Shown here piece after piece: positions 1 through 8,529 of a stretch of DNA of 8,529 nt. The stretch's first letter is position 1. Every line of letters begins with the position of its first letter. Position numbers and translations under genes: made by a program. The notes below the pieces were generated by a model. That model was not told the origin of the DNA, made no database searches, and saw nothing but the letters and a program-made list of their open reading frames with translations. The stretch spans positions 1-8,529 of the forward strand of contig JABJCS010000821.1 in the NCBI GenBank assembly GCA_018665505.1, given 5' to 3'. This stretch comes from Alphaproteobacteria bacterium (GTDB lineage Bacteria; Pseudomonadota; Alphaproteobacteria; UBA8366).

Positions 1-1152
1 ACCCGTTATGTGATCCGTCGTCTCCGCATAGGAAAAGGGGAAGCGGTCCGCCATATTCTCATGATCTTCATATTGCTGACCGGCGGCAGTCACACCGCAG
101 GCAAAGCGATGGTTCAACCACATCAGACCACCGCCAGAGACATGCGGCAGGACACCATCAAAGACCCGCCGACCTTCAACATCCGCGTTGAAACCTTGGT
201 GGATCATGTCGCGAATGCAGCGCCCGGTCTGCGAGCGGCCCCACGCGTAGGCTTTCTCTACGGTATCGCCGAGTGGGTTCACCTGTCCGGTAGAATCGGC
301 GCTATCGTTCTTCAAGAAACTGACAAAATCCCGCACAGCCACATGGCCTAATCCCATGACCAGCGGATCCTTGCCGGTATAGACGATCTCGTAAATCCAA
401 CCGGTCTCAAAACCTTCCGGCAGCAGGACATGAACGTCCGATGGCACTATCGCCGTCTCAGCGCGCTGATTGTCGAGCCCTACACCGCCTTCAATACGGG
501 CAAACGCCCAGCGATCGCCAGGAATATCCTCTCGTTCATCTTCCGGATAGCGCCGCCGCGTGAGGCGCGCCGTACTGGTATCGAGGGAGACTGTTGGATG
601 GCTACGTGTCGACGCCCGGCCGCTCAGCGGCATACAAGCCTGTCCTGGCGCTGTCACGATGAACTCACTGCGCACTAAGCCGGTAATCGAAGCTCCATTC
701 TCGGTCGCGACGGGCAAATCCATTGTCATTCGACCGTCACCCGGCCACAGGTCGCCCTGCCAGGCGCAATTCGCCACAACATAGCCCCGCCTCATCAAAT
801 AGCCGTTCCCCGCATGAGCGGTCGAAATCGGGTCGTTCGATGCCGGAGCATCGTTGAAAAATTGGATCGCCCGCATATTGCCGCGATTGCCATAATCGAA
901 AAATAGCCGACCGTTGGCATTTGCCATCTCGACCGGCTTGATGATCGATATATCGGCGGAGAATGTCACCAGACCGTCGCCATTGAGGGCAGCCTTATCC
1001 AGATCGACGACGTCCAACTGTCCGGAAGCCTTCGGGTCGATGGTGAAATGGGCTTGCCCGTCGAGCCGTTCATAGGCACCCACATCGCCGAAAGTCTCGC
1101 CCTCCGCGAAAGTGCGGCAACGTTGGAGATCGAGCTGGATATTATTCGTCAT
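1..1152 (-). CDS. Alpha/beta hydrolase domain protein (PF20091-like), 3' end missing
   Basis: This gene is open to the left edge; 384 codons are visible and the C-terminus is missing. The N-terminal part carries the family pattern FGDVGAYERL (residues 21-30), then IDP and a DL..A stretch, then a central DYGNRG and GYVVANCAWQGD. A serine nucleophile elbow GRSQTGR lies at residues 305-311 with Ser307 as the likely nucleophile, followed by FDGVLPHVSG. These features match the large alpha/beta hydrolase domain family (PF20091 as I remember it), whose members are usually well over 500 residues. The catalytic His and acid should lie in the missing part. Substrates of the family are poorly known; ester hydrolysis is inferred. 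The ATG start at 1152 has AAGGA eight bases upstream. No signal peptide is visible, so a cytoplasmic location is likely. It is transcribed divergently from the PcfJ-like gene. Confidence 0.85.
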   Translation of the reverse strand, partial: MTNNIQLDLQRCRTFAEGETFGDVGAYERLDGQAHFTIDPKASGQLDVVDLDKAALNGDGLVTFSADISIIKPVEMANANGRLFFDYGNRGNMRAIQFFNDAPASNDPISTAHAGNGYLMRRGYVVANCAWQGDLWPGDGRMTMDLPVATENGASITGLVRSEFIVTAPGQACMPLSGRASTRSHPTVSLDTSTARLTRRRYPEDEREDIPGDRWAFARIEGGVGLDNQRAETAIVPSDVHVLLPEGFETGWIYEIVYTGKDPLVMGLGHVAVRDFVSFLKNDSADSTGQVNPLGDTVEKAYAWGRSQTGRCIRDMIHQGFNADVEGRRVFDGVLPHVSGGGLMWLNHRFACGVTAAGQQYEDHENMADRFPFSYAETTDHITG

Positions 1153-1215
1153 CGGATGTTTCCTTGATACTGGATCGATCACGCGTCTCCCAGAGATAAG
1201 ACGGACATGCGCAAT

Positions 1216-1235
1216 TCATCGATTGATATCGATGA
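1216..1235. promoter_or_regulatory. Inverted repeat in divergent promoter region
   Basis: TCATCGAT, a 4-base spacer (TGAT) and ATCGATGA form a perfect 8-bp inverted repeat. It lies between two divergent genes, about 64 bases upstream of the hydrolase start and 51 bases upstream of the PcfJ-like start. The position and symmetry suit an operator bound by a dimeric regulator, but no regulator gene is adjacent and no family motif is recognised. Chance occurrence is possible. Confidence 0.35.
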
Positions 1236-1273
1236 TGAACCATTCTAGACCTCTTAGGGAACCGCTCAAGCGT

Positions 1274-1280
1274 AAGGAGG
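1274..1280 (+). promoter_or_regulatory. Strong ribosome binding site setting a GTG start
   Basis: AAGGAGG sits six bases before the GTG at 1287. It is a near-perfect Shine-Dalgarno sequence and decides the GTG start of the PcfJ-like gene. Confidence 0.85.
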
Positions 1281-1286
1281 CGAGAA

Positions 1287-2231
1287 GTGAAGACTCCCAA
1301 CGACTCGCCGAATTTCACCTTCTCCTTTGCCGATGGATGCCGGATCGTCCTGCTGACGAATGTCGCGGAGTATTTGCGCGAATCCGCTCTGATGCGAAAT
1401 TGCCTCAACGATCTTGATCGTTTCGCCGCCTCGGAGATTTATTCGTTCCGTGACGCAACGGACCAGCCCCATGCAAATATCGAAATTCGGGACGGTTTAT
1501 TGATCCAGATCGGCGGTCCTGAAAACGGCGGCGTGGCCGCGCGATACCATCCGCACTTGCATTCATTCTTGGCCGAAAGCGGTATACCGAAATCGGATAT
1601 AACCGCGCGCCTCGGCTTTATTGAATTCGATGGTAGAGCGTTCCCAAACCTCGAAGAATGCGTTGAGGCATTTGCCGGCTGGGCAGAGATCGAGACCACT
1701 CCACAAGACCTTCCCTTTATGCGCCACTCCACAATCCGGGAATTTTTAAACATCTTTGCAAGGCACGGACGGTCGGCAAAAGAGCCCACACGTGACATCG
1801 TGCAATCGTTGTTCACACCGCCACTCAATGCTTGGCGTGTAAGGGCCGAGACGGCAGTTTACCTGCCCGGTGACATTCAGATACAGCGACCACAATTAGC
1901 GTCGGCCCTTTATCATCTTACTCGATATGGCGCGGTTCCGAGAGCCGCGCACGATAACGTTTTCCGCAACGCCATTTTGGAGATTACAGCGCGCGCCATT
2001 CGGGAGCCCCGGGTGGTTTACGACCTCTCGGCCGAGAATAAAATTCTAACGCCGGAGATTTTCGCCGATCTGTTGGCGGCAACAGCGACCACGGAAGCCT
2101 ACGATCAGGCGCGCGATATCACTCGGACTATAAAGTTGCAGGCCGTACTATCAGCGCAAGAGAATTTACCGAACGACGAAGCTTATTCCGTCCTCGCGGA
2201 TCGACTGACGCACGACCCGTTGACACTTTAG
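1287..2231 (+). CDS. PcfJ-like domain protein of unknown function
   Basis: A 314-residue soluble protein with no membrane segment or signal peptide. Residues 35-95 resemble the core of PcfJ-like proteins (named after an enterococcal conjugative-plasmid gene): LMRNCL with Cys39, then YSFRD (52-56), a Pro61...IEIR strand (65-68), and a Q-x-G-x(3)-N element (Gln74, Gly76, Asn80). In that family the pattern is roughly a Met/Cys turn, a strand ending in arginine, a P...T/N-x-E-I strand and QxxGxxN. Spacing here fits, though the fit was judged by eye. The remaining 220 residues are mixed alpha/beta with no motif I recognise. The function of PcfJ-like domains is not established. The GTG start is supported by AAGGAGG six bases upstream. 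The gene converges on the response regulator with three bases between stop codons, so there is no room for separate terminators. Confidence 0.6.
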   Translation: MKTPNDSPNFTFSFADGCRIVLLTNVAEYLRESALMRNCLNDLDRFAASEIYSFRDATDQPHANIEIRDGLLIQIGGPENGGVAARYHPHLHSFLAESGIPKSDITARLGFIEFDGRAFPNLEECVEAFAGWAEIETTPQDLPFMRHSTIREFLNIFARHGRSAKEPTRDIVQSLFTPPLNAWRVRAETAVYLPGDIQIQRPQLASALYHLTRYGAVPRAAHDNVFRNAILEITARAIREPRVVYDLSAENKILTPEIFADLLAATATTEAYDQARDITRTIKLQAVLSAQENLPNDEAYSVLADRLTHDPLTL

Positions 2232-2234
2232 GGG

Positions 2235-2660
2235 TCAGGCGTCCGCCTTGCTGTCGATGATTTGCTTGGCCAATGCCGAGACTTTCTTCGAGAAATCGCC
2301 GTATGTGAACGGTTTGGCGACATAAAGCGTCACGCCGCTTTCCACCGCGGCCGCGACAGCCTCACCGGTAACTTTGACCGTGAGCATCATGAACAAGGTT
2401 TCCGAACCGAATTGCCGCATCTTCTGCAACAACTCGAGCCCATCCATCCTTGGCATCAGCCAATCGCTGATCACCAGATCATAGTCGAGTTCGCTCCGGC
2501 TCAACCGCTGCCAAGCCATCTCGCCGTTCTCTGCCAGGTGCACACGCACAATCCCGAGATCGCGCAATATCTCTTGGATGAGGTCACGAATCTCCTCTTC
2601 GTCGTCAACGACGAGCACACGGAGCTTTTCGAATTCTTCGAGGAGTTGTGGATCGGACAT
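2235..2660 (-). CDS. Stand-alone CheY-like response regulator receiver protein
   Basis: A 141-residue protein made of a single REC domain with no output domain. Acidic pocket residues Asp19 and Asp20 (VVDDEEE), phospho-acceptor Asp66 in SDWLMPRMDG, Thr94 (LT) and Lys116-Pro117 (AKPF) are all present, with aromatic Tyr113 in the CheY switch position. The DW-x-MP context resembles CheY-type chemotaxis receivers, but no chemotaxis gene is nearby, so the output could be motility, a phosphorelay or protein-protein control. No histidine kinase is in the window. The N-terminus has a short acidic helix (about 12 residues) before the first strand. No Shine-Dalgarno sequence precedes the ATG; see the promoter entry for a possible leaderless transcript. 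It lies 49 bases downstream of the transporter gene on the same strand. Confidence 0.92.
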   Translation of the reverse strand: MSDPQLLEEFEKLRVLVVDDEEEIRDLIQEILRDLGIVRVHLAENGEMAWQRLSRSELDYDLVISDWLMPRMDGLELLQKMRQFGSETLFMMLTVKVTGEAVAAAVESGVTLYVAKPFTYGDFSKKVSALAKQIIDSKADA

Positions 2661-4670: not shown

Positions 4671-5657
4671 ATGACCAACCACAGTGCGCTATTTGATTTG
4701 ATCGACCGCATCGTTTGCCTAGATGTTGGCGGCAGAGGTGTCTCTGGCCTGTTCGAACCAGCCCGCGCCTTGGTAGACGGTCCACTTGCATATACGGCGG
4801 CGAAGCATCTTAACGGTTTGGAGGCGGGCGATAGCGTTTTCATCGTCACGGGATCACTGACACGCGCAGGTGTATCGCCCGATATCGCGGAGAATGACGG
4901 TCCCATCGGCTCCGCCGTCCTCGCACGCGCGCTCAGCAAAGGTTTTAACGCCATTCCGGTTATTATCGTCGACGCTTCCATTCGTGAACGTGTCGCTCGG
5001 ATGGTGGAGTTCGCGGGCCTGAATGTCGTCTCGCACGAACAAGCCCACACCGCCACCTCGTTGCCCCGCTTTACCGGCGTCGCGGTCATGGAGAACGGTG
5101 CCATTGAAGACGATGCTGCTCGCGCCGCCGCGAAAGCGCTTTTGAGCACATATTCACCGAAAGCAGTCATCGCTTGCGAGCGTGCCGGGCTTTCCGCCGA
5201 CGGCACCTATCGCAACGCACTCGGCCAGGACTATAGCGCCGGGCGCGAAAAACTTGATTACATCGTCGAATACGCACAAGACCAAGACATTCCGACAATT
5301 GGGATCGGTGACGGCGGTAATGAAATCGGCATGGGTGCGGTCAAAGCCGCCGTCGCGGAACATATCCCCCATGGGGAAGTGCTCTGCGCGGAAATGGCGA
5401 CGGATGTGCTCTTGCCGGCCGGTGTCTCCAATTGGGGTTGCTATGCCATCGCCGCAGCGCTTGCGATCCTACGGAACAACCCGGCACTTGCACACACGCC
5501 CGAAGCCGAGCGCAGGCTACTCGATTTCTCCCCCTCTACCGGGCTTGTGGACGGCATGTCTGGTATGCTGGATGCGACTGCCGACGGCATGCATCCCGAC
5601 GTTCACGCGAGTATTGTCGAGCTTCTTGCCCAAACAGTGCGGAAGGCGCTCACATAA
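4671..5657 (+). CDS. DUF4392 / D-glutamate cyclase C-terminal domain protein
   Basis: A 328-residue protein that is essentially one DUF4392 (PF14336) domain. Recognisable elements are TGSLTRAGVSP (60-70) with DGPIGS (76-81), the CERAG...DGTYRNALGQD block (169-187) and GIGDGGNEIGMG (211-222), all hallmarks of the family. The mammalian homologue DGLUCY is a mitochondrial D-glutamate cyclase that turns D-glutamate into 5-oxo-D-proline; the bacterial stand-alone domain is often assumed to do the same, but this is not shown for this protein. No signal peptide is visible. The ATG has GAGGA (4657-4661) nine bases upstream, inside the end of ghrA, and lies three bases after the ghrA stop. Coupling to a 2-hydroxyacid dehydrogenase suggests a shared small-acid pathway, perhaps D-glutamate or a derived 2-oxo acid; that is inference. 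Confidence 0.85.
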   Translation: MTNHSALFDLIDRIVCLDVGGRGVSGLFEPARALVDGPLAYTAAKHLNGLEAGDSVFIVTGSLTRAGVSPDIAENDGPIGSAVLARALSKGFNAIPVIIVDASIRERVARMVEFAGLNVVSHEQAHTATSLPRFTGVAVMENGAIEDDAARAAAKALLSTYSPKAVIACERAGLSADGTYRNALGQDYSAGREKLDYIVEYAQDQDIPTIGIGDGGNEIGMGAVKAAVAEHIPHGEVLCAEMATDVLLPAGVSNWGCYAIAAALAILRNNPALAHTPEAERRLLDFSPSTGLVDGMSGMLDATADGMHPDVHASIVELLAQTVRKALT

Positions 5658-5705
5658 AGTTTCGTTGCAGGGCGCCGGACTTCGCATTACTTCACAATTC
5701 ACAAC

Positions 5706-5723
5706 CGTGCCCGCGTGGGCACG
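5706..5723 (+). other. Perfect hairpin in the leader of the selenoprotein gene
   Basis: CGTGCCC and GGGCACG form a 7-bp perfect stem around a GCGT loop. The hairpin ends 11 bases before the ribosome binding site (ACGAGG, 5735-5740). It is followed by an A-rich stretch and not by a T-run, so it is not a typical intrinsic terminator on the plus strand, and on the minus strand the T-run precedes the stem. It could be a leader structure, an operator or an RNA-stability element. Confidence 0.4.
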
Positions 5724-5745
5724 ACAAAAAACAAACGAGGCACCA

Positions 5746-6219
5746 ATGGGTAAAAAACTTTACGCGGGCGATATCTTTCCAGATCTGACGGTGAACGTCG
5801 CCGGTGGTGGATCCTTCGACCTGAAAAGCAATCTTGAGGCTAATTACAACATCGTCCTTTTCTATCGAGGGCACTGGTGACCCTACTGTCGCCGGCAGTT
5901 AGCCGGCTATGAAGCAAAGAAAGAAGCCCTCGCGGCCACGGGCGCGAAAGTCGTCCTAGCGGGCAGTGTCGACGGAGCCGACAAGATTCCGGAACTCCAA
6001 GCCGACCTCAGTTATCCTGTGGCTATCGACATGACGCGGGAACAAGGCGAATCGTTCGGCGCATGGTGGGATGAAGGACGAGAAATCATCCAACCGTCCG
6101 AATTCATTCTCCGAAAAGACGGTAGCGTCATCTCGGCGACCTACAGTTCGGGCCCGATCGGGCGCGTAGAGCCGGAAGATGCGGTGAAACTAATCACGCT
6201 CTACACATCGCGCGATTAA
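5746..6219 (+). CDS. Selenoprotein: peroxiredoxin-like / thioredoxin-fold oxidoreductase with UxxC site
   Basis: Read through one in-frame TGA (5878-5880), this gene encodes 157 residues. Before the TGA is an AhpC/TSA-like start (GDIFPDL, then VLFYRGHW); after it comes PYCRRQLAGYEA, the usual continuation of the peroxiredoxin-like family whose active site reads YRG-x-W-C-P-[YF]-C. The TGA replaces the first cysteine, giving Sec45-Pro-Tyr-Cys48. The downstream part keeps the thioredoxin fold: LAGSVD, YPVAIDMT, PSEFILRKDGSVISATYS. The protein probably reduces peroxides or disulfides in the cytoplasm, with selenium as the catalytic nucleophile and Cys48 resolving it; the substrate is unknown. 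The ATG at 5746 has ACGAGG five bases upstream. A SECIS-like hairpin follows the TGA. The gene sits 88 bases after the DUF4392 gene and is closed by a terminator. Ordinary gene callers would split it at the TGA and miss it. A nonsense mutation is much less likely given exact placement at the catalytic residue and an intact frame afterwards. Confidence 0.88.
5878..5880 (+). other. Selenocysteine codon (recoded TGA)
   Basis: In-frame TGA at residue 45 of the peroxiredoxin-like protein, between Trp44 and Pro46-Tyr47-Cys48. It occupies the position of the conserved first cysteine of the CxxC site. Recoding requires SelA, SelB, SelD and tRNA-Sec, none of which is in the window. Confidence 0.87.
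5891..5907 (+). promoter_or_regulatory. Bacterial SECIS-like hairpin
   Basis: GCCGGC, loop AGTTA, GCCGGC: a 17-nt hairpin with a perfect 6-bp stem starting 10 nt after the TGA. The apical loop starts 17 nt after the TGA and has G at its second position followed by U. Known bacterial SECIS elements have a small hairpin about 11 nt after UGA with a G (and often GU) early in the loop; the E. coli fdhF element is also a 17-nt hairpin. The bulged U of the E. coli stem is absent. The hairpin is inside the coding frame (Arg-Arg-Gln-Leu-Ala-Gly). Confidence 0.75.
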
Positions 6220-6327: not shown

Positions 6328-7209
6328 ATGACCATCGACATCCCAGGACCGACATCCCATTCTTATTTCTCCCAACGGCTGCGGCTGCATTATGTGGATT
6401 GGGGCAATCAAGATGCGCCGCCGTTATTGTTGGTCCATGGTGGGCGGGACCATTGCCGCAATTGGGACTGGGTTGCGGAGACACTCCGCGAGGACTGGCA
6501 TATCATCGCGCCGGACCTGCGTGGTCACGGCGATTCGCAATGGATGATCGGCGGTAGTTACGGCCTCTCCGATTATGTCTACGACATCGCGCAACTTCTC
6601 CATCAAACCAAGCATCAACCGATCACCATCATCGGACATTCGCTTGGAGGCTCGATTAGCCTGCAATACACCGCGATTTATCCAGAGACAGTCCGCAAGC
6701 TCATCGCCATCGAAGGTCTCGGCTGGCCGCCGGATGACGTAAAAGAGCGCGAGAGTAAAGCACCGGCGGACCGGGTAACCGAATGGATCGACTTCACACG
6801 TGGCATTTCCGGCCGAGTTCCCCGTCGCTACCCGACCATCGAAGAGGCTTTCCAACGCATGCAAGCGGCCAACCCTCATTTAACTCCCGATCAGGCCCGG
6901 CATTTGACCATCCACGGCGTCAACCAAAACGAGGATGGGACCTATAGCTGGAAATACGACAATTATACCCGCATCCGCTCGCCGTTCGGTTTCCCGGAAT
7001 CGGAGCGGCAAAAACTTTGGGAGCGGATAACCTGCCCGACGTTGTTGGTCCGCGGCACGGAAAGTTGGGCCAGCGATCCGACCGAAGATGGGCGCGCCAA
7101 GCATTTCCAGAATGCCGAAATCGCCAATATAGAGGGCGCTGGGCACTGGGTGCATCACGACAGGCTGGACGAGTTCGTGGGGCTTGTGAAGGGCTTCCTT
7201 GCCGATTAG
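6328..7209 (+). CDS. Alpha/beta hydrolase
   Basis: A 293-residue single-domain alpha/beta hydrolase. Visible elements: LLLVHGG oxyanion-hole region (33-39), APDLRGHGDS (61-70), the nucleophile elbow GHSLGG with Ser105 (103-108), and GAGHWVHHD with catalytic His273 (270-278). The acid is probably in RGTESWASD (242-250), either Glu245 or Asp250. Residues 133-230 form a helical cap, including WIDF and a YSWKYDNYTRIRSP segment that resembles serine-hydrolase-like (SERHL) proteins. The substrate is unknown; ester or epoxide hydrolysis are family possibilities and dehalogenation is less likely. No signal peptide is seen. It has its own ribosome binding site and follows a terminator, so it probably has its own promoter, although none is obvious. 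It converges on egtD and the stop codons overlap (TTAG, 7206-7209). Confidence 0.88.
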   Translation: MTIDIPGPTSHSYFSQRLRLHYVDWGNQDAPPLLLVHGGRDHCRNWDWVAETLREDWHIIAPDLRGHGDSQWMIGGSYGLSDYVYDIAQLLHQTKHQPITIIGHSLGGSISLQYTAIYPETVRKLIAIEGLGWPPDDVKERESKAPADRVTEWIDFTRGISGRVPRRYPTIEEAFQRMQAANPHLTPDQARHLTIHGVNQNEDGTYSWKYDNYTRIRSPFGFPESERQKLWERITCPTLLVRGTESWASDPTEDGRAKHFQNAEIANIEGAGHWVHHDRLDEFVGLVKGFLAD

Positions 7210-8177
7210 GTGCTTGGGACTTCCACGTAATGGACGCTGAACAAATCATCGGCGTCCGACCACACGGCTTTAGAGATGAATCCCGCTTCGCCCGCGAGTG
7301 CCTGGAATTCTTCGATTTCGTATTTGTGGGAATTTTCGGTGTGTATCGTCTCACCTTCGGCGAACGAGAATTGACGACCACCAACTTGCACAATCTGATC
7401 TCGTAAGCTCACCAAATGCATCTCAATCCGTCCATCAACGGCATTATAGAGAGCGTCGTGGCGAAACGCGTCGGTATCGAAATTGCCGCCGAGTTCCGCG
7501 TTAATTCGGGTCAGAAGGTTTAAGTTGAATGCCGCCGTCACACCAGCGCCGTCGTTATAAGCGGCATGAAGGATGGCTTCATCCTTCTTTCGATCCGCAC
7601 CAATCAAAAGCCCCCCACCTGGGCCCACATGCGCAGCAATCCGCAACAGAAACTCCCGAGCAGCCGACGGCTCGAAATTCCCAATAGTCGAGCCAGGGAA
7701 GAAGGCTACCCGGCGTTGGTCCGGTTGGCTTGGCGGGACGTCAAATGGCTGCGAGAAATCCGTGCAAATAGCGTGAACCTGGATAGACGGATAGTCTCGC
7801 GCCAGCGTTTCCGCTGCCATGCGCAGATGTTCCCGTGAAATATCCACCGCGATGTAAGATGCCGGGTCGTCCAAGGCATCGAGCAAGACACGAACCTTTT
7901 CGATGGAGCCACAGCCGTATTCAAGAACCTGTGCCCTGGGTCCGATCGCGGCCGACATCTCGGCCGCTTTCGCCCGCATCAGCGCGGTTTCAGTCCTGGT
8001 CGGGTAGTATTCCGGCAGTACACAAATTTGGTCGAATATCCGCGAGCCCACCTCATCGTAGAAAAATTTGCATGGCAGAGTCTTATGCGATGCGGACAAT
8101 CCCGCGACCACATCACCGAGGAAATCATCTTCCGCAGGCGAAAGATCGCTAAAGGACGCTAGAGCTGATTCAGTCAT
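7206..8177 (-). CDS. egtD: L-histidine N-alpha-methyltransferase EgtD
   Basis: A 323-residue SAM-dependent methyltransferase that converts histidine to hercynine (N-alpha-trimethylhistidine), the first step of ergothioneine synthesis. The family opening KFFYDEVGSRIFD..C.LPEYYPTRTE spans residues 37-63. The SAM motif is EYGCGS (86-91), with the acidic Asp112 after the second strand. FFPGSTIGNF (159-168) contains Asn167, matching the histidine-binding Asn166 of mycobacterial EgtD; Tyr207 matches Tyr206, and Glu281-Asn-Ser283 matches the Glu282/Ser284 pair that selects histidine. All recognised substrate residues are kept, so activity is likely. Length matches the family (about 320). The ATG at 8177 has no clear Shine-Dalgarno sequence, and no better upstream start was found. 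It lies 55 bases downstream of the egtB-like gene on the same strand, forming the usual egtB-egtD pair. Confidence 0.94.
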   Translation of the reverse strand: MTESALASFSDLSPAEDDFLGDVVAGLSASHKTLPCKFFYDEVGSRIFDQICVLPEYYPTRTETALMRAKAAEMSAAIGPRAQVLEYGCGSIEKVRVLLDALDDPASYIAVDISREHLRMAAETLARDYPSIQVHAICTDFSQPFDVPPSQPDQRRVAFFPGSTIGNFEPSAAREFLLRIAAHVGPGGGLLIGADRKKDEAILHAAYNDGAGVTAAFNLNLLTRINAELGGNFDTDAFRHDALYNAVDGRIEMHLVSLRDQIVQVGGRQFSFAEGETIHTENSHKYEIEEFQALAGEAGFISKAVWSDADDLFSVHYVEVPST

Positions 8178-8232
8178 TTTGGGGACACGGTTGCGACAGG
8201 AATGGCACCATAACGGGCTGCCCCTTTTGCCG

Positions 8233-8529
8233 TCAAATCGCGCAGGTCCGGAAGCCGCAAATGGTATCTTGGCGGTCTGGTGTGAAGAAATTCCGATAGG
8301 TGTTGGAGATCATCCGCCCCCGCGTCGCCCAAGCCCCGCCACGCAGTACCTTTCGCGTGCCGAACCATGGTTTTGAATAATCATCGTACGGATCGACAGA
8401 AAACCCGGGAAACGGCACGAAGTCGCTCGCCGTCCATTCCCAAACATTGCCGATCATCTGGCGACATCCAAAGGCACTGTCCCCTTCCGGATAGGCGGCG
8501 ACATCGACCAATCCCGTATGCCTACCATC
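8233..8529 (-). CDS. egtB: EgtB-like sulfoxide synthase, C-terminal part (5' end missing)
   Basis: The last 98 residues of a gene that is open to the right edge; roughly 300 or more N-terminal residues are missing, including the DinB-like domain with the iron-binding histidines. The visible part is the formylglycine-generating-enzyme-like (SUMF1) fold: GCRQMIGNVWEWTAS, then PYDDYSKPWFG, then KVLRGGAWATRGRMI, ending YRNFFTPDRQD-x(2)-CGFRTCAI. EgtB joins hercynine to a thiol donor (gamma-glutamylcysteine or cysteine) using iron and oxygen. The ending GFRTCA differs from the G-x-RLA ending I know from classical EgtB, so this may be a variant subfamily, possibly SenA (selenoneine synthase). Pairing with egtD supports a hercynine-based pathway in either case. 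Confidence 0.85.
   Translation of the reverse strand, partial: DGRHTGLVDVAAYPEGDSAFGCRQMIGNVWEWTASDFVPFPGFSVDPYDDYSKPWFGTRKVLRGGAWATRGRMISNTYRNFFTPDRQDTICGFRTCAI

Follow-up and report, generated by a model that had tools for sequence, protein, structure and literature searches.

A peroxiredoxin-like UxxC protein with a probable selenocysteine, encoded next to selenoneine biosynthesis genes in alphaproteobacterial DNA

The window analysed here (the whole stretch of 8,529 nucleotides) carries a gene on its forward strand, at positions 5746-6219, whose product is in all probability a single complete selenoprotein of 157 residues, in which the UGA at 5878-5880 is read as selenocysteine by SelB under the guidance of a hairpin. 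The frame consists of an ATG, 44 codons up to Trp44, the TGA, a further 112 codons and a TAA at 6217-6219, just as the initial annotation had described it, and the ribosome binding site that was proposed ahead of the ATG is likely the GAGG at 5737-5740. The predicted selenocysteine is residue 45 and its partner is Cys48 (TGT, 5887-5889), the sole cysteine of the protein, so that the site reads W-U-P-Y-C. The gene, the recoded codon, covariation of the SECIS hairpin, a link to the selenocysteine machinery in relatives and the predicted fold were all obtained computationally.

Gene callers had been expected to split the gene into a truncated product ending at Trp44 and a fragment starting near 6049 or later. 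In the ORF list, the upstream part appears as the tail of a longer frame (5182-5880), and the first start past the TGA is a GTG at 6019, a small correction. In a first-order Markov sequence of the same composition, approximately 3.7% of random starts remain open for 112 codons, and the open frame past the TGA, taken alone, is weak evidence for coding. Measured against the nearest relative, the 112 codons downstream of the TGA have dN 0.10 and dS 1.75, and the 43 aligned codons upstream have dN 0.20 and dS 2.12; dS is close to saturation in both comparisons and the dN/dS ratios are therefore rough, though the values indicate that purifying selection acts on both sides of the TGA.

The TGA at codon 45 is common to the window and 32 other genomes (33/33 of the Sec group), and every one of the 80 homologues whose DNA lacks it has TGC or TGT in its place. 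This agrees with the earlier proposal that the TGA falls on the first cysteine of a W-C-P-Y-C site, but the count is partly built in since 79 of these homologues were retrieved with a six-pattern peptide scan in which the pattern FYRGHWCP requires that cysteine. The scan thus favours Cys forms; among the best 80 of 111 contig stretches encoding a relative, contig L001 (MAG UBA6544, Alphaproteobacteria) shares 77% identity and likewise has a TGA at codon 45, and the remaining 79 have a Cys codon there. A search of the class without the Cys-demanding pattern returned 21 sequences with TGA and one with TGC at codon 45. The motif RGHWUP(Y/F)CR(R/H)QL is found in 31 of the 33 Sec-group sequences, the exceptions being one that reads RGIW and that of genome G399, in which a stop replaces the Q. 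The latter (L148) has an extra in-frame TAG next to the SECIS loop where the others have CAG, either an error or a sign of decay. A search of plasmids gave 53 records, each of less than 60% identity. We consider that the TGA at 5878-5880 almost certainly specifies selenocysteine, judging from these comparisons and those that follow.

A bacterial SECIS-like hairpin follows the codon at 5891-5907 of the forward strand, with a stem of 6 bp (5891-5896 paired with 5902-5907), the loop AGUUA at 5897-5901 and a distance of 16 nt from UGA to loop. The 45 nt past the UGA fold at -13.0 kcal/mol (z -1.87; 10 of 200 shuffles equally good). The limits for bacterial SECIS elements in the available text of PMC13188914 are a loop of 3-9 nt with a G in its first two positions, a stem of 4-16 bp, a UGA-to-loop distance of 16-37 nt and a minimum free energy of at most -7.5, and the hairpin lies within every one of them. 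Conservation was evaluated on an alignment of 33 sequences (the window and 32 genomes) from which no TGA sequence was dropped and in which one duplicate row was counted once. Paired cells amounted to 97.4% against 85.9 in shuffles, cells changed on both sides to 21 against 5.1, and the covariation score to 0.401 against 0.172, none of the three being reached by any of 500 shuffles; the score did not exceed 0.145 with slid partners. Changes on both sides occur in three of the six stem pairs, for example C-G to U-A or G-C, G-C to A-U and G-C to U-A. The other two of the five pair measures, namely how many pairs show changes on both sides (reached by 121/500 shuffles) and the count of pair types (90/500), were not beyond the shuffles.

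The loop reads AGUUR in all 33 Sec-group sequences, and six stem pairs form in 28 of these hairpins and five pairs in the other five. By comparison, six pairs form in none of the 80 Cys-coded homologues and five pairs in two, a contrast that is supportive, not decisive, given the greater distance of the Cys group and the different residues that it encodes at the hairpin. When the folded stretch was extended to take in the UGA and bases 5' of it, a different hairpin was preferred and the fold was no more stable than its shuffles (z 0.01); for this reason, the SECIS assignment rests on the comparison of sequences. Rfam models run over the window gave a single match, far below the gathering score and away from the hairpin. 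Overall, the covariation supports the hairpin 3' of the TGA as a SECIS-like element, a feature that the initial annotation had not noted. Recognition of such elements can differ between lineages.

L001, the nearest relative, is colinear with the window across its ten genes, which are 58-88% identical (the end of L001 cuts the first gene), and the source of the window is therefore very probably related to that organism. The genome of L001, G001, encodes the machinery for selenocysteine: selA (592.7 bits) adjoins selB (336.5 bits; the gene is cut by a contig end and matches positions 1-261 of the 581), the tRNA-Sec scores 76.4 bits, and selD (313.5 bits) is a 764-residue frame that, as a whole, scores 311.0 bits on the selD model (cut-off 125). 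This SelD carries a pyridine nucleotide-disulfide oxidoreductase domain fused at its N-terminus, the frame at 238-2529 (+) of L118 corresponding to 9573-11294 (-) of L001. The model for the N-terminal domain scored 478.1 bits (cut-off 310) and the model fusion_not_SelD 461.3 bits, under its cut-off of 700; the arrangement is similar to the Ndh-SelD fusions named in PMC2398784. The searches for selB and selD covered G001 alone among the genomes of the TGA carriers, and those for selA covered all of them.

Among 385 genomes of the class to which G001 belongs, 22 matched the gene at E 1e-15, and 21 of these have one in-frame TGA (the sequence from G008 is partial). The sole match without it, G341, has TGC at codon 45 and no selA. 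Above its cut-off, selA occurs in 56 of the 385 genomes, namely 21/21 TGA carriers versus 35/364 others (Fisher p 6e-20), while in the order sample 12 of 43 genomes match, all with the TGA (G399 with the TAG as well), and selA occurs in 21, being 12/12 carriers versus 9/31 others (p 2e-5); these p values are rough as the genomes are related and G001 is counted in both samples. Taken together, selA is present in 32/32 TGA-carrying genomes, 21 from the class and 11 more from the order. The tRNA-Sec model is less discriminating. All 22 matching class genomes pass the Rfam score and 20 of them reach 66-76 bits, but ordinary tRNAs in these genomes also reach approximately 47-49 bits, the level of the best scores in G341 (49.0 bits) and G367 (47.5 bits). 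No tRNA-Sec above the ordinary-tRNA level was thus detected among the 120 of 774 candidates scored in G367, which is a TGA carrier with selA; this single result counts against the reading, but is possibly owing to the limited scoring of candidates or to an assembly gap. In a sample of 398 genomes of the phylum there were two matches, G001 and one genome without an internal stop. Conversely, nine genomes of the order and 35 of the class have selA without a match to the gene at E 1e-15, hence the gene is not required wherever selenocysteine is used.

These distributions bear on the possibility that the sequence is a pseudogene or contains a sequencing error, the TGA being a true stop or a misread TGC. 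The window provides a single copy of its sequence, and the relative in G399 bears an additional TAG. Nevertheless, an accident of this kind is very improbable when 32 further genomes have the TGA at this very codon, selection persists past it and its occurrence tracks selA.

Relatives in the protein collection are informative on the way this codon is handled in databases. There were 399 at E 0.001, and residue 45 was read among the 120 listed, of which 87 begin past that position and 25 have a residue other than Cys there: Trp in 21 and Gly, Gln, Arg and Leu in one each. The other eight have Cys, but U is written as C in the compared proteins and some of the eight may in fact be Sec. We infer that the shortened records and the Trp45 records reflect the handling of TGA by gene callers; the Gly, Arg and Leu may be error copies, each one base from TGA. 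The four records with Gly, Gln, Arg or Leu at the Sec position are P0002, P0007, P0026 and P0035, and three of them lie on contigs of approximately 1 kb or less; perhaps they are error copies retained since the stop was lost.

The 21 records with Trp45 and the one with Gly could be taken to mean that TGA codes for a standard amino acid, for instance Trp, in this organism, although they probably show how callers read the TGA, and such a reassignment has hardly any likelihood. TGA functions as a stop in this DNA, three of the ten window genes ending in it, and homologues without the TGA have Cys, not Trp, at the aligned residue. Matches to EgtD (3-300 of 301), the GhrA model (3-312 of 312) and a GLUCM-like model (1-290 of 291) are unbroken by TGA, although the other window frames were called with TGA as a stop, which makes the absence of internal TGA true by construction.

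With Cys in place of Sec, the protein matched AhpC-TSA over residues 8-129, on both sides of the TGA (64.2 bits, cut-off 26), and Redoxin (PF08534) at 45.2 bits (cut-off 26.6), and the peroxiredoxin-like assignment with a UxxC site (U45-P-Y-C48) made in the initial annotation was thereby upheld. No NCBIfam model reached its cut-off on the 157-residue protein. The SelL-related redox protein (NF040769) was considered and rejected, its profile match being weak (21.3 bits, cut-off 120). The structure predicted with Cys replacing Sec is one compact domain (mean pLDDT 93.8) and its best matches are peroxiredoxins, with TM scores (query) of 0.75-0.83 among the 50 matches listed; profile matches to ResA thiol-disulfide oxidoreductases were obtained as well. 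Four profile alignments to solved peroxiredoxins place Cys48 on the Cys of the P-V-C site, which we take to be the peroxidatic cysteine, and align position 45 with the residue three places ahead of it in T/S-P-V-C, which is Thr in three of them and Ser in one. The predicted model is thus that of a thioredoxin-like pair on a peroxiredoxin scaffold. It is as implausible as a reassignment of TGA that the region yields two products without recoding, namely a 44-residue peptide and a C-terminal fragment, in spite of the internal start at GTG 6019 and the C-terminal pieces in the protein collection (the 87 of 120 noted above), for the AhpC-TSA match runs across the TGA, the predicted structure is undivided and compact, the 3' hairpin covaries and every TGA carrier has selA.

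A single selenoprotein is therefore the reading that we retain, as first proposed for this gene, and it is supported by the 32 genomes with the same TGA, all with selA, and by the covariation. Selenocysteine at such a site of the thioredoxin fold was said at the outset to be known, which the available text of two studies corroborates. A 'Prx-like protein' in which a thioredoxin-like UXXC replaces TXXU was described from the Sargasso Sea by 2005 (PMC1088965), and 'Prx-like 1' (pfam00578, UxxC) comprised 225 sequences in the GOS data (PMC2398784). Both share with the present gene the AhpC-TSA domain, UxxC in place of TxxU, and a UGA with a bacterial SECIS; the likeness is at the level of domain and motif (reference WP_010940744.1). 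What distinguishes the present group is its motif, in 31 of 33 sequences, and an alphaproteobacterial named member (L001). The 'Redoxin family protein' (PF08534; PMC9312934, PMC13188914) likewise has the domain and UxxC in common, again by description (reference HEU0032618.1). Sec-peroxiredoxins of the TxxU type have the peroxiredoxin fold in common, but in the present protein the Sec lies three residues earlier, at the Thr position, with Cys48 at the peroxidatic position. Membership of that type was rejected, as the peroxidatic position is Cys48 and not Sec. The kind of protein is hence known, and the gene adds a member in Alphaproteobacteria, for which a 2006 survey gave one selenoprotein family, FdhA (PMC1794560), and a 2025 paper three known selenoprotein genes in one alphaproteobacterium (PMC12013277), according to the accessible portions of both.

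In the proposed mechanism, the hairpin at 5891-5907 would guide SelB and Sec-tRNA, so that the ribosome inserts selenocysteine at the UGA (5878-5880), and the product would combine the fold of peroxiredoxins with a U-P-Y-C site of thioredoxin-like type in which Sec45 would occupy the Thr/Ser position of TxxC and Cys48 that of the peroxidatic Cys. Most likely, the Sec45 selenolate would attack a peroxide or disulfide, Cys48 would then close an Se-S bond, and this form would be recycled by a reductant such as thioredoxin. Actual insertion of Sec in this organism, the catalytic cycle and the action of the Sec45-Cys48 couple on peroxide or disulfide substrates are what we infer from the gene and its relatives.

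In the window, the Sec gene is followed by an alpha/beta hydrolase and then, on the opposite strand, by EgtD and the C-terminal end of SenA. EgtD (7206-8177) is the L-histidine N(alpha)-methyltransferase that makes hercynine (TIGR03438, 411.7 bits, cut-off 290.9). SenA, the selenoneine synthase (8233-8529), is cut by the window end and consequently scores 130 bits over 73 of 382 positions of NF041186, below the cut-off of 420; over the shared part it is 83% identical to the full-length SenA of L001. The stretch at 7206-8529 (-) thereby enters a selenoneine biosynthesis cluster that continues in L001 (6283-11294) and L151 (10921-15919). Both contigs have the same order, followed by full SenA (506.3 and 517.6 bits, respectively, cut-off 420), SenB (394.6 and 390.2 bits, cut-off 300) and SelD. 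In L164 (genome G114), approximately 10 kb (3055-13382) hold SelD, SenB (399.5 bits), SenA (468.6 bits), the Sec gene, tRNA-Sec, SelB and SelA; EgtD was not detected at that locus.

Genes for sel or sen functions are found at 9 of the 32 TGA loci with flanks: sen and selD in L001 and L151, sel and sen in L164, and sel without sen in L154, L156, L158, L159, L160 and L170. None were detected at the other 23, some of which are cut by contig ends. SenB is above its cut-off in 14 of the 385 class genomes, comprising 8/21 TGA carriers versus 6/364 others (p 5e-8); among the selA genomes of the class the figures are 8/21 versus 4/35 (p 0.04), and the link of the gene to sen is weaker than its link to sel. 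SenC, SenB and SenA convert hercynine to selenoneine with a reduction as the last step (PMC10702425, in the accessible text). It is conceivable, though we regard it as rather unlikely, that the Sec-peroxiredoxin is a partner in the selenoneine pathway, serving the final reduction or the recycling of oxidised selenoneine, and that the locus is a joint selenium antioxidant island of SelD, SenB, SenA, EgtD and the Sec-peroxiredoxin, in one genome also tRNA-Sec, SelB and SelA. No report tying a Sec-peroxiredoxin to a sen cluster was found in the titles and abstract openings of the papers listed, a body of text that mostly excludes subscription journals.

The findings add a well-supported selenoprotein group to the Alphaproteobacteria, carried by 21 of the 385 genomes sampled in the class. 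The listed database relatives are mostly shortened and the protein stays below the cut-off of every NCBIfam model; a rule for detecting such genes could be built from the SECIS alignment of 33 sequences. With the selenoneine cluster beside the gene, two uses of selenium meet in one locus, and the protein may be considered a candidate reductant for the pathway.
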